DNA of 64,000 nt from Alteromonas stellipolaris (GTDB taxonomy: Bacteria > Pseudomonadota > Gammaproteobacteria > Enterobacterales > Alteromonadaceae): NCBI RefSeq assembly GCF_001562115.1, contig NZ_CP013926.1:1922001-1986000 (forward strand). Direction: 5' to 3'. The notes under the pieces were generated by a model. The model ran no database searches. It worked only from the letters and a program-made list of their open reading frames with translations, and was not told where the DNA came from. Position 1 is the first letter of the stretch; each line of letters begins with the position of its first letter. The position numbers and the translations under genes were made by a program. Positions 22,133 to 25,935 of the stretch are shown here, piece after piece.

Positions 22133-22212
22133 TCATAAAACCCGCCCTAAGCACAGTAGTTTATTAACGCATTTCCAGCATAATTATTTCCGAATCACTC
22201 GGAGATATGGAA

Positions 22213-23193
22213 ATGCCGCTACCTCGATACAAGCAAGTCAATTTAGATGTCACACCTTATTATCATTGCACATCACGTTGTGTGCGACAGTCCTTCCTCT
22301 GTGGCGTTGATGCCAGCACAGGCAAAAACTACAACCACCGCAGACAGTGGATTGTAGACAGGTTACATAAGCTCACGAAAACCTTTGCCATTGACCTTTG
22401 TGCTTATGCCGTAATGCACAATCACACTCATATTGTGGTTCATATCGCAAAGGCGAGAGCTGAACATTGGAGCATGGATGAAGTGTTACTTCGCTGGAAA
22501 AATTTTTACCGTTGCCCTTCAGTAGTCCAACGTTATCTTGATGAAGAGACCAGAAGTTCATTATCTGAAGTAGAGCTTCAAAAAGCTGAAGAATTAAGTG
22601 AGATTTACCGTCATCGCTTGTATAGCGTAAGTTGGTTCATGCGGCTATTAAATGAGTTTATTGCTCGAAAAGCGAATAAAGAAGATGAGTGTTCAGGCTA
22701 CTTTTGGGAGCGCCGATTCAAAAGCCAAGCGATATTGTCTGAAAATGCGCTTGCAGCAACCATGGCCTATACCGATTTAAATCCCATCCGGGCCGATATA
22801 GCCAAAACTCCAGAGCAGTCCCACTTCACCAGCATTCAGTACAGAATTAATGCTTTGAAAGTAAACAAAGTGCCTGCTCGGCTTATGCCATTTAATGATC
22901 AAGTTCCAGTTAATGAAAGCAGCCTGCCCTTCAATTTAACCGATTACTTAGTACTGGTTGATGAAACCGGTCGCGTTATGCGCTCAGATAAGAAAGGTGC
23001 TATTCCCAAAAAAATTAAGCCTATCTTAGACAGGCTTAAGGTTTCTGGTAAATCTTGGATTACCCTTTCAACCAAACTAGAAAGGAAATTCGCAGGCCCT
23101 ATCGGCTCTGCAGAGCGAATTTGCGTGTATGCCTCTGCATGCGAATATGGCAGAAAGCCAAACATTGCAAATGCCAGAAGATACCTTCAATAG
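22213..23193 (+). CDS. REP-associated tyrosine transposase (RAYT, Y1 HUH family)
   Basis: A 326-aa Y1-type transposase. The N-terminal PYYHCTSRCVRQSFLCG is characteristic of the longer RAYT subgroup; the HUH motif is NHTHIVVH (His71-Thr72-His73) and the likely catalytic Tyr lies in MAYTDLNPIRA. HUH enzymes nick single-stranded DNA and RAYTs are linked to dispersal of extragenic palindromes. The start at 22213 fits the CGGAG site better than 22207. It is a lone gene without IS200-type partner or obvious terminal ends. Four clusters of short repeats lie within 11 kb, but none directly touches it. Confidence 0.88.
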   Translation: MPLPRYKQVNLDVTPYYHCTSRCVRQSFLCGVDASTGKNYNHRRQWIVDRLHKLTKTFAIDLCAYAVMHNHTHIVVHIAKARAEHWSMDEVLLRWKNFYRCPSVVQRYLDEETRSSLSEVELQKAEELSEIYRHRLYSVSWFMRLLNEFIARKANKEDECSGYFWERRFKSQAILSENALAATMAYTDLNPIRADIAKTPEQSHFTSIQYRINALKVNKVPARLMPFNDQVPVNESSLPFNLTDYLVLVDETGRVMRSDKKGAIPKKIKPILDRLKVSGKSWITLSTKLERKFAGPIGSAERICVYASACEYGRKPNIANARRYLQ

Positions 23194-23256: not shown

Positions 23257-24195
23257 CTAGTGAGAAGCTTGTCTGGCTAACACATCCACAATTTCTTGTG
23301 ATTTTGATAAGCGCCGGATGTCGTTAAACAACAATTCTGCTTCAGGATATTGCCTTTTTAAATAGCCACACCACTGCTTTATACGATTAGGGTAGTACTT
23401 ACCCTTATCACCGTAAATTTCATAGCCTGAATAGCGAATAAGCAATGCGGCCACATCTTCCCATGCCATAGGTGGTTCGTCATTTCGAATACACCTTGCT
23501 AAGTTTGGCATGGCAAGCGCTCCCCTACCCACCATTAAGTTAGTGCAAGCTGATTGCTCTTGGCAACGCTGGGCTTCTTCTGCATTCCAAATTTCGCCAT
23601 TTGCCACTAGTGGAATATTAGTGCTTTGCTTTATTTTAGCAATCCATTCCCAGTAGGCTGGCGGCTTATAACCTTCCGTTTTTGTTCTAGCGTGTACGAC
23701 TAGTTCAGACGCGCCCGCTTCCGTGATGGCGATAGCATTTTCTACAGCAAGCGATTTATCTTCAAAGCCCAAGCGGATTTTTGCTGATACAGGTTGTGAG
23801 GCGGGTACCGCATCGCGAACGGCTTTTACGATGTCGTATAAAGCCTGGGTTTCTTTTAAAAGGACCGCACCGCCTTTGCTTTTATTAACAGTTTTTGCAG
23901 GGCAGCCAAAATTTAAATCTACCCCTGGCGATCCCAAATCAACCGCAGTATAAGCATTTTCTGCCAACCACTCTGGGTGCTGCCCTAATAGTTGGACACG
24001 CACTGGTACGCCATTAGGAGTTTTGCCGCCATTATGTAGCTCGGGGCATAGCTTGTAGAAGGTTTTATTGGGAAGTTTTTGATCCACTACTCTTACGAAT
24101 TCAGTTACACACTGATCGAACCCACCTACATGGGTAAGCATATCTCGCATTAAATGGTCGACAACACCTTCCATAGGTGCCAGCATGATTTTCAT
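23257..24195 (-). CDS. dusC: tRNA-dihydrouridine(16) synthase DusC
   Basis: A 312-aa flavin-dependent tRNA-dihydrouridine synthase. The catalytic Cys98 lies in NFGCPAKTVNKSKGGA; FMN-binding segments include VVHARTKTEGY and VANGEIW. The MLAPMEGV start and length indicate the DusC subgroup, which reduces U16. It lies downstream of the MetJ-boxed small operon, separated by the repeat array 24324-24487. Confidence 0.92.
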   Translation of the reverse strand: MKIMLAPMEGVVDHLMRDMLTHVGGFDQCVTEFVRVVDQKLPNKTFYKLCPELHNGGKTPNGVPVRVQLLGQHPEWLAENAYTAVDLGSPGVDLNFGCPAKTVNKSKGGAVLLKETQALYDIVKAVRDAVPASQPVSAKIRLGFEDKSLAVENAIAITEAGASELVVHARTKTEGYKPPAYWEWIAKIKQSTNIPLVANGEIWNAEEAQRCQEQSACTNLMVGRGALAMPNLARCIRNDEPPMAWEDVAALLIRYSGYEIYGDKGKYYPNRIKQWCGYLKRQYPEAELLFNDIRRLSKSQEIVDVLARQASH

Positions 24196-24323
24196 AACTA
24201 AATTTCGCTAAAACTGAGTGGTTAAAATGGGCGCGAGAGTGTAGCAAAGTGCGGGTTATATGACCATGCTATTTAAGTTTCGAGAGGAAATTGTGTAATT
24301 AGAGCGGCTGTCCTAGCCTTTGT

Positions 24324-24487
24324 TTGAGTGACTGTCCGAAATCTAACTTGAGTGACTGTCCGAAACCTAACTTGGTTTGAGTGACTGTCCGAAATCTAAC
24401 TTGAGTGACTGTCCGAAACCTAACTTGGAGTGACTGTCCACCCCTTACTTGAGTGTGTGTCCAACCCTAACTTGAGTGTGTGTCCAA
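24324..24487 (-). repeat. Repeat cluster 4: seven head-to-tail copies
   Basis: Seven copies of the AGTG..TGTCC repeat run in the same orientation at 24324, 24348, 24377, 24401, 24425, 24449 and 24472. The first four are AGTGACTGTCCGAA copies arranged as two tandem 53-bp units; the last two are GAGTGTGTGTCCAA. The final copy overlaps the 3' end of the DUF1289 gene. The rest of the gap to dusC (24196-24323) shows no feature. Confidence 0.88.
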
Positions 24488-24640
24488 CTTTTGGGTTTGT
24501 AAGCGGATGAGGACATTTTGTTTTTGCTGTGTGCTATAGCTCGACCAACTAGTGATTTCTTTAATGGTGCGCTTACAACCGGTGCATACATCATCGGCGT
24601 CTAGCTTACAGTTGGCAATACAAGGTGACACTATACTCAC
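24467..24640 (-). CDS. DUF1289 small cysteine-cluster protein
   Basis: A short gene of 57 codons. The frame begins with GTG at 24640 and contains SPCIANCKLDADDVCTGCKR: four Cys (7, 11, 19, 22) in the CX3C-X7-CX2C pattern of the DUF1289 family (predicted metal or Fe-S binding, YdhL-like), then the usual EITSWSSYSTQQKQNVLIRL. Its start shares one base with the stop of the preceding gene (TAGTG), so translation is coupled. The last six codons (LDTHSS) and the stop lie inside the intergenic repeat family, replacing the natural C-terminus. Function unknown. Confidence 0.82.
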   Translation of the reverse strand: MSIVSPCIANCKLDADDVCTGCKRTIKEITSWSSYSTQQKQNVLIRLQTQKLDTHSS

Positions 24641-24870
24641 TAATACTTGGCCCTAAGAGTTTGATTTTCTGATGCAGTATTTTTAGCAATAAGAGAGGCA
24701 TGTAGCATAGCATCAATCACTTTTTGCGTAGGCTCTTTGGCAGTCCACATACAGACATGCACACCGAACTTCGCATTCAAGAACGCGTCGAACTGGGTTT
24801 TATCTTCATAATCACCCTTCACCAATTGTTGTTTATAGCCATCATAAATTAATGCAGAAAATGTAAACAC
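24640..24870 (-). CDS. Unidentified 76-aa protein downstream of met boxes
   Basis: I do not recognise this protein. It is soluble, with FTFSALIYDGYKQQLVKGDY at the N-terminus, KFGVHVCMWT mid-way and a helical C-terminal half. The start is taken as GTG at 24870 because AGGAGG lies five bases upstream; the longer frame from ATG 24921 would start inside the operator and promoter. A MetJ-type operator covers the predicted promoter, and the DUF1289 gene follows with overlapping stop and start codons. This suggests repression when S-adenosylmethionine is high and a role linked to methionine or sulfur metabolism (inference). Confidence 0.72.
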   Translation of the reverse strand: MFTFSALIYDGYKQQLVKGDYEDKTQFDAFLNAKFGVHVCMWTAKEPTQKVIDAMLHASLIAKNTASENQTLRAKY

Positions 24871-24873
24871 GTA

Positions 24874-24894
24874 AGCCTCCTCATCGAGAAGGCT
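24874..24894 (-). promoter_or_regulatory. Hairpin enclosing the ribosome-binding site
   Basis: AGCCTTCTC-GAT-GAGGAGGCT can form a 9-bp stem (one G-U pair) that buries the AGGAGG of the 76-aa gene. The predicted transcription start (about 24890) lies within the 5' arm, so the full stem exists only if transcription begins a few bases upstream. Confidence 0.35.
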
Positions 24895-24896
24895 CA

Positions 24897-24925
24897 AATA
24901 TACACCTAGACGTCTAAACATTCAA
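24897..24925 (-). promoter_or_regulatory. Promoter of the 76-aa gene / DUF1289 operon
   Basis: On the minus strand TTGAAT (24925-24920), a 17-bp spacer and TATATT (24902-24897) form a near-consensus sigma-70 promoter, fully overlapped by the met boxes. Confidence 0.6.
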
Positions 24926-24939
24926 ACATCTAAACGTCT
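24900..24939 (-). promoter_or_regulatory. MetJ operator: five tandem met boxes
   Basis: Five contiguous 8-bp units match the met box AGACGTCT with 7, 6, 4, 8 and 5 of 8 positions (order on the minus strand, from 24939 to 24900). Tandem phased 8-mers with one or two strong boxes are the known form of MetJ operators. The first box overlaps the stop codon of the M14 gene; the array covers the -35 and spacer of the promoter of the next gene. Confidence 0.75.
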
Positions 24940-25840
24940 ATTTTATATATTCCAATGCTGCGGTGATCACAGCCACTTGGGCAGCATTACAATTTTCAGC
25001 CGTGGCATTAGCGCTATCAGGATAAACTTCTGTTGTGGTTACAAACTCTGCGTCTGTCATGCCACCACAAAGATACAATGCTTTTTTGTCGTAACAAATT
25101 ACACCTTCAGACAATAAGTCAGCACCTATAATTTTGCCGCTATCATCAGCAAGCGCAATATGAGTTACCTGCTTAACTGCATCGATAATAGCTTCCTGAA
25201 ATGGTTTTTGTGGATTAGTGGTATTCGCCACTAAATAAAACCCATCAGGAATATTCCAATTATCGTGAGTCGTTGCATCTCGTGCTGCTAATGCAGGCCT
25301 AAACTCACTGTTATCGGTATCGGTGGTTTCATGTAAATCGACATGCAATGTAAATGGTAAGTTCAACGATTCAACGAATGCCATTAGCTGCGCTGATTCC
25401 GGCGCTGGAGAATTAGGATAAAATGAACGATTAGGATCTAACGCATACTGATCCCAACGGTTAATCGTCTCATAACCCCAAGGGCTAACACATGGAACAA
25501 CAATGATGGTGAAGTCTTCTGCATACTCACTTAGCTTGGTATTGATAAACTGAAGCGCGCCCTGCACCCCACTGGTTTCATACCCATGTACACCGCCGGT
25601 AACTAGCACCGCTGGCTTGGCTGCGTCGATATTTTTAGGGATTACGGCATACAACGGGTATCGAGACTCATCGTAAGGCAACGCGCCATACTGCTTTAAT
25701 TCAAACCCTTCAGGAATGCTGCCTAACTGTTTTAGTACTTCATCGCTGTATGAACGCTTTATAGTTTGGCGCTGTTTCCACTCTTCTTTCTCTTCTTCAC
25801 CCCAAGGTTGTCCTGGCGTGCCGATAGGATAATTTTGCAT
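24938..25840 (-). CDS. M14-family zinc deacylase/carboxypeptidase-like protein
   Basis: A 300-aa member of the M14 (succinylglutamate desuccinylase/carboxypeptidase) superfamily. The zinc ligands are GGVHGYETSG (His and Glu) and HVDLHETTDTD (His), and a C-terminal TTEVYPD carries the likely catalytic Glu. No signal peptide, so a cytosolic amide or peptide hydrolase is expected; substrate unknown. The start at 25840 is supported by GAGG seven bases upstream, against a longer frame starting at 25861. Confidence 0.82.
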   Translation of the reverse strand: MQNYPIGTPGQPWGEEEKEEWKQRQTIKRSYSDEVLKQLGSIPEGFELKQYGALPYDESRYPLYAVIPKNIDAAKPAVLVTGGVHGYETSGVQGALQFINTKLSEYAEDFTIIVVPCVSPWGYETINRWDQYALDPNRSFYPNSPAPESAQLMAFVESLNLPFTLHVDLHETTDTDNSEFRPALAARDATTHDNWNIPDGFYLVANTTNPQKPFQEAIIDAVKQVTHIALADDSGKIIGADLLSEGVICYDKKALYLCGGMTDAEFVTTTEVYPDSANATAENCNAAQVAVITAALEYIK

Positions 25841-25935
25841 AAATAACCTCTTTGTTAACACGGCTATATTATCAAGACGGTATTGGTTTGTATGTGGAAT
25901 ATCGATAAGAGCGGGAGGAATTAAGGTGTAGAAAC

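Follow-up and report, generated by a model that had tools for sequence, protein, structure and literature searches.

A predicted MetJ-controlled small-protein operon of Alteromonas with a candidate fold-back hairpin in its leader

Introduction

Why should a row of methionine-repressor boxes stand in front of a gene that encodes a 76-aa protein without known family? Such an arrangement is present in the window analysed here, a 64,000-nucleotide stretch of the Alteromonas stellipolaris genome, and a sequence-only reading of the window had proposed MetJ control of a two-gene operon of unknown function. In passages of two articles, most of the MetJ targets described are enzymes, transporters or regulators that serve methionine metabolism (PMC4239095, PMC3228920), with metA, metK, metF, thrA-type and serA genes among those listed in the part consulted of Leyn et al. 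2014 (PMC4239095). The small gene is not named in the passages and sections consulted of these two articles, and nothing on the gene or on its type of leader was among the results listed by literature searches. Like the known regulon, the locus has AGACGTCT-like boxes in tandem across a promoter, and metJ is present in its genome; it differs in that the target is an uncharacterised small protein, neither enzyme nor transporter.

Computed here were the operator and the way it accompanies the gene, the purifying selection on the protein, a hairpin kept by compensating change and the synteny of the locus. The leader hairpin and the co-directional M14 gene upstream are new beyond the sequence-only reading. 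Taken together, the locus is probably a MetJ-regulated small-protein operon with a fold-back lock against read-through transcription, and this is the interpretation that is favoured below.

Operator and promoter

The predicted MetJ operator (24900..24939, minus strand) is made of five contiguous 8-bp boxes and is supported by box matches, window scans and conservation among orthologues. From 24939 to 24900 on the minus strand, with the matches per box counted by eye, the boxes are AGACGTTT (7/8), AGATGTTT (6/8), GAATGTTT (4/8), AGACGTCT (8/8) and AGGTGTAT (5/8), which gives 30/40 consensus matches over the array. One perfect box, one box with 7/8 matches and their contiguity had been claimed before and were read back from the sequence. 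The same holds for the promoter under the boxes, TTGAAT-N17-TATATT, whose coordinates are unchanged: the −35 hexamer TTGAAT, read from the sequence (24920..24925, minus strand), overlaps boxes 2 and 3, and the −10 hexamer TATATT (24897..24902, minus strand) follows after a 17-bp spacer, a TATNNT hexamer being found after the last box in 54/54 leaders. The GTG of the 76-aa gene lies 29 nt downstream. The departures of the boxes from the consensus would fit the promoter hexamers. Box 1 overlaps the stop codon of the upstream M14-peptidase-like gene, which is on the same strand.

The two-box consensus, with three or fewer mismatches allowed, was matched twice in the 64-kb window, both times within the array, and none of 100 dinucleotide shuffles gave at least two such matches. 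The best four-box score of the window, 25/32, is at the operator; the next values are 23, the window position of which was not separately located, and then 19. A metJ gene, without which the sequence-only reading would have fallen, is present in this genome (PF01340, 2.7e-56) and in 58 of the 59 Alteromonas genomes studied, the exception being G050 (180 contigs), which has the small gene. Over the whole genome, 18 two-box sites per strand were found vs 7 for the reversed control. Eleven distinct sites had their flanks inspected; six adjoin methionine-linked genes, namely metJ/metF, metA, metK, serA and the genes for an O-acetylhomoserine sulfhydrylase and an aspartokinase/homoserine dehydrogenase (metJ identified by profile, the rest by NCBIfam), and the other five are inside open frames.

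Of 59 whole Alteromonas genomes searched with the protein, 54 gave a match to the small gene. All 54 loci were fetched, and the leader counts given below rest on them. The other five genomes were searched with a profile, which revealed a divergent copy in G044, the one match accepted there (the others had E values of 0.02 or worse), so that the gene is present in 55/59. The best four-box score upstream of the small gene is 22-26/32 in 54/54 loci (median 25), against a flank maximum of 19/32 over 146,592 positions of the same loci, and the operator of G044 scores 25/32. The sequence-only reading had suggested that boxes be sought upstream of orthologues, and all 55 Alteromonas homologues carry the operator. 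With metJ present and the boxes accompanying the gene in 55/55 Alteromonas homologues and in 5/5 homologues of a second genus (discussed below), the comparison of sequences points to a real operator, and MetJ control of the small gene is well supported.

Leader hairpin

The gene upstream of the operator encodes an M14-peptidase or AstE-AspA-like protein (24938..25861, minus strand; open reading frame and profile). It is upstream and co-directional in 54/54 loci, where it ends 4-67 nt before the −35 hexamer. Downstream of the promoter, the leader of the small gene forms a hairpin with an 11-bp stem (24872..24896, minus strand; 5' arm 24896-24886, 3' arm 24882-24872), as judged by folding, swaps between lineages and a metA control. 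In this strain, the 5' arm begins 1 nt after the −10 hexamer, and the Shine-Dalgarno sequence AGGAGG (24876..24881, minus strand), located by sequence and fold, is wholly in the 3' arm.

This layout recurs in the genus. The 54 leaders, taken from the −10 hexamer to the start codon, have stems of 7-11 pairs, and pairing begins 1-3 nt past the −10 in 53 of them and at 6 in one. The Shine-Dalgarno sequence is fully inside the 3' arm in 48/54 leaders, partly inside in four, unpaired in one (L052) and not recognised in one (L070, without a clear Shine-Dalgarno sequence). Among 20 diverse leaders, defined as differing by more than 30% edit distance, the native fold energy beats shuffles of the 5' part in each (p 0.002-0.046); the combined Fisher value of 3e-26 overstates the case, as the lineages are related. 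Folds were weaker for leaders shortened by 3 nt, with z < −1 in 31/46.

It was further observed that the two arms have changed together. Exchange of the first 6 nt between lineages weakened the fold in 357/378 swaps (mean 5.6 kcal/mol), and shorter exchanges did so in 320/370 (3 nt) and 336/376 (4 nt) cases. In the control, swaps among 14 of the 21 metA leaders gave a weaker fold in 90/180. The sequence of the stem and the bases of the start region vary between lineages, and the pairing is kept. The swaps, along with the metA control, thus indicate that the pairing is maintained by compensating change and that this is specific to the small gene. A hairpin as a general trait of MetJ promoters was rejected, because only 3/14 metA leaders reached p <= 0.05 (Fisher p 0.02) in addition to the swap result. 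The metA leader of this genome (L003) has a strong hairpin of its own directly behind its −10 (p 0.002), which is not conserved in the 14 diverse metA leaders. Known RNA families were also considered and set aside, the one match being far below the gathering score.

Proposed mechanism

Transcription from sigma70 promoters typically begins about 7 nt after the −10 hexamer, and starts at nt 1-4 are unusual. Judged by its position relative to the −10, the stem suggests a native start inside the 5' arm. For the 20 diverse leaders, the mean fold energy is −13.7 kcal/mol when RNA begins at nt 1 and −3.5 kcal/mol when it begins at nt 7. The fold model for the 54 leaders gives an unpaired probability of the Shine-Dalgarno region of 0.13 in read-through RNA and of 0.42 from nt 7. 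The exceptions are L066, in which the value goes from 0.33 to 0.32 with the shorter start, and L051, which keeps a strong inner stem (−8.9 kcal/mol).

In the model that we infer for MetJ binding, the start site, the action of the lock and the role of the protein, MetJ-SAM would occupy the five boxes and cover the sigma70-type promoter as long as methionine/SAM is plentiful. Once SAM falls, RNA polymerase would begin some 7 nt beyond TATATT, and both the 76-aa protein and a second copy of a DUF1289 protein would be made; induction at low SAM is what MetJ control would be expected to bring about. Transcripts of the M14-like gene, which is directly ahead on the same strand, may run on into the small gene. 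Such read-through RNA would carry the whole inverted repeat, fold, and bury the Shine-Dalgarno sequence, and the hairpin may also end the upstream M14 mRNA. The RNA from the MetJ promoter would begin inside the 5' arm, making the full stem impossible and allowing translation. The hairpin would in this manner be a fold-back lock by which the small gene is shielded from transcription coming from upstream, its control being left to MetJ. The covarying pairs include nt 1-6 after the −10, which are outside the standard transcript and are contained in the upstream RNA, and it is this fact that leads to the fold-back reading. If the start were at nt 1-4 instead, the hairpin would repress the small gene's own transcript.

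A precedent is known from IS10/Tn10, where fold-back inhibits the translation of transposase on read-through RNA. The logic proposed here is alike: RNA from outside, with the full inverted repeat, hides the ribosome-binding site, and the element's own RNA starts inside the repeat. An inverted repeat that holds the Shine-Dalgarno sequence in its 3' arm and is kept by compensation marks a lock of the IS10 type, and the leader has such a repeat. It differs from IS10/Tn10 in being a chromosomal, MetJ-repressed locus of housekeeping type, with a 7-11 bp stem and without a transposon, and its action as a lock is here a matter of likeness. The leader offers a clean and cheap test case for whether chromosomal genes are insulated from their neighbours by fold-back hairpins.

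The same hairpin could instead be mainly a terminator or 3'-end stabiliser of the M14 gene, with the Shine-Dalgarno sequence of the small gene merely falling within it. A GC-rich stem-loop after M14 is indeed seen in three genomes that do not have the small gene (L135, L136 and L137, in G006, G028 and G053), and in 24/54 leaders, 5 or more of the 8 nt that follow the stem are T. Against this, a stem with a run of at least 4 T within 8 nt is seen in just 2/54, for which reason a plain T-run terminator was rejected; the Shine-Dalgarno sequence is wholly in the 3' arm in 48/54; and the stem stays close behind the −10 in 53/54 although the distance from the M14 stop to the −35 varies from 4 to 67 nt. 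As the main role of the hairpin, termination or 3'-end stabilisation is therefore considered unlikely. Terminator and lock may go together in one hairpin, and the leader hairpin may have grown out of a 3'-end hairpin of M14.

Somewhat less likely still is a translational switch by which the hairpin acts on the small gene's own mRNA, either as an RNA thermometer or through a choice of start site. The latter is known from pyrC, where the stem is retained or lost according to slight changes in the start. As in E. coli pyrC/pyrD, the 5' arm of the hairpin is at the presumed start site and the 3' arm contains the Shine-Dalgarno sequence. When the start is shifted from nt 1 to nt 7, the Shine-Dalgarno region opens steadily from 0.16 to 0.42 in the fold model of the 54 leaders, and the covarying outer pairs reach nt 1, which is easiest to understand if some RNA contains them. 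The bases of the stem and of the start region are, however, unconserved between lineages, unlike those of a nucleotide-sensing start site, and transcription from nt 1-4 is uncommon. The locus also departs from pyrC/pyrD in that the regulator is MetJ and nucleotide sensing is not indicated. The fold-back lock on read-through RNA thus stays the preferred reading of the hairpin.

DUF1289 and the gene neighbourhood

The small gene stops in TAG, the G of which is the first base of the GTG of a DUF1289 gene (24467..24640, minus strand). This overlap of stop and start had been described before and is seen in the sequence. The 57-aa product contains a C-x3-C-x7-C-x2-C cluster and matches PF06945 (E 8.3e-20, 70.8 bits vs a cut-off of 27). 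It is the second DUF1289 copy of this genome, the other being at a separate locus in a 113-aa open frame. The earlier statement that these two are the only genes downstream on the strand is wrong, as a co-directional dihydrouridine synthase gene (dusC-like; 23257..24195, minus strand; open reading frame and profile), used here as a flanking synteny marker, follows 271 bp past DUF1289. Likewise, the two-gene operon stands for this strain and fails as a general rule: DUF1289 follows the small gene in 43 of the 54 fetched loci and in G044, that is, in 44/55.

It could be asked whether DUF1289 is the real target of MetJ, with the small frame acting as a leader or coupling peptide. That stop and start codons overlap in this strain would suit such an arrangement, and so would the fact that every genome with an operonic DUF1289 has another, separately located copy. 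A census of the 59 genomes found two copies in 44 and one in 15, the latter being the 11 with an operon lacking DUF1289 and the four without the small gene. An operonic DUF1289 without the small gene is found in no genome, yet the small gene and its operator occur without DUF1289 in 11/55 loci. Its absence from these loci makes the small protein the constant target. The small protein is, moreover, under purifying selection, and no DUF1289 motif is found within about 1.5 kb of the homologues in the second genus. DUF1289 as the true target is, therefore, quite improbable.

As for what DUF1289 proteins do, a passage of one report (PMC8228696) states that overexpression of the E. coli member YdhL leads to strong H2O2 resistance and names it as a candidate for HOCl as well. 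The operonic copy described here clearly belongs to the family and differs in being short (57 aa) and linked to MetJ.

The gap between DUF1289 and the dus gene contains imperfect repeats in tandem, each about 25 bp long (GAGTGACTGTCCGAAACCTAACTT-like; 24310-24490), which extend into the 3' end of DUF1289, and GAGTGTGTGTCC-like motifs also adjoin the locus L040. Near these repeats, a 328-aa open reading frame (22207-23193) has a sub-threshold match to Y1_Tnp, an IS200-like transposase. The two together make a possible REP-type system.

Loss of the operator with the gene, and a second genus

The small gene is absent from G006, G028 and G053 (99-100% complete) and from G036 (87% complete), and metJ is present in all four. 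In the first three, M14 is present, and the 435 nt after it have neither the small gene nor met boxes (best score 14-16/32). The comparison of joint loss covers these three; in G036, M14 was not matched.

The named database matches of the small protein are from Alteromonas. An alignment search over the order (394 genomes) gave 13 matches: seven in the same genus, three in the second genus and three judged to be noise (L089-L091). A family search of 395 genomes gave 42 matches at E <= 0.01, which were 30 in the same genus, five in the second genus, one in G574 and six judged to be noise. G574, which has another genus label, contains an Alteromonas-type small gene with operator on one contig (locus L117) and is outside all the counts; the contig may be a stray one or the result of transfer.

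The second genus, probably Glaciecola going by two database matches so named, has a homologue in 5/13 genomes. These proteins have a longer N-terminus and are encoded at a different locus (L118-L122); neither M14 nor dus nor a DUF1289 motif lies within about 1.5 kb. A 14/16 box pair is present in 5/5 of them, 107-176 nt upstream as counted from the boxes to the conserved core, and the flank maximum is 10/16 in 13,887 positions. The hairpin layout of Alteromonas was not found in the leaders of the second genus as far as these were inspected. As both the locus and the leader are different, the boxes cannot be put down to common descent of the neighbouring DNA. That the boxes arose by chance or are inherited sequence without function, for which it can be said that just two of the five reach at least 7/8, is hardly credible in view of their conservation, their loss along with the small gene and their presence in a second genus, where both locus and leader differ; chance boxes were rejected on the shuffles (0/100) and the flank maximum of 19/32.

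The small protein and its possible role

The 76-aa gene (24640..24870, minus strand; GTG start at 24870) is defined by its open reading frame, its homologues and dN/dS. The dN/dS values are 0.06-0.30 in the 13 pairs, out of 17, for which they could be computed, and such low values mean purifying selection on the small protein. Its fold is a generic one, with a beta-beta-alpha-beta core and a C-terminal helix. Structure searches likewise returned a generic small fold in tied rows that include p56, Gp2, YkzG (RNA polymerase epsilon) and the ribosomal proteins L18a/LX. A sequence search of the PDB gave no match, and no match from the fold and family searches assigns a function to the protein. A phage minor tail protein (Phage_min_tail, PF05939) was considered and rejected at 18.4 bits vs a cut-off of 39; against 38 members of the small-protein family, this profile matches two at E <= 0.01 (best 0.0012).

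MetE (PF08267) is absent from 52/59 genomes, including this one, and a passage of Augustus and Spicer 2011 (PMC3228920) states its absence for A. macleodii. Without MetE, methionine would depend on B12, and a shortage of methionine would often mean a shortage of B12. Our guess is that the small protein is probably a protein-binding effector of methionine/SAM shortage. The Fe-S or SAM-related upkeep that the sequence-only reading had put forward as a role found no support in the results. A wider and tentative proposal, more doubtful than this, is that it serves the whole genus as an effector of methionine/SAM (often B12) shortage that tunes a cellular machine by binding to it, and that it is potent enough, if mis-expressed, to be doubly guarded, by MetJ and by the hairpin. 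Alteromonas is a common heterotroph of the sea, and an orphan small protein under MetJ control in almost all of its genomes would point to a missing part of the response to methionine/SAM/B12 shortage.

An exploratory comparison relates the downstream gene to MetE: the operonic DUF1289 is lacking in 5/7 MetE-bearing genomes vs 6/48 among the remaining genomes that have the small gene (Fisher p 0.002, with kinship ignored).
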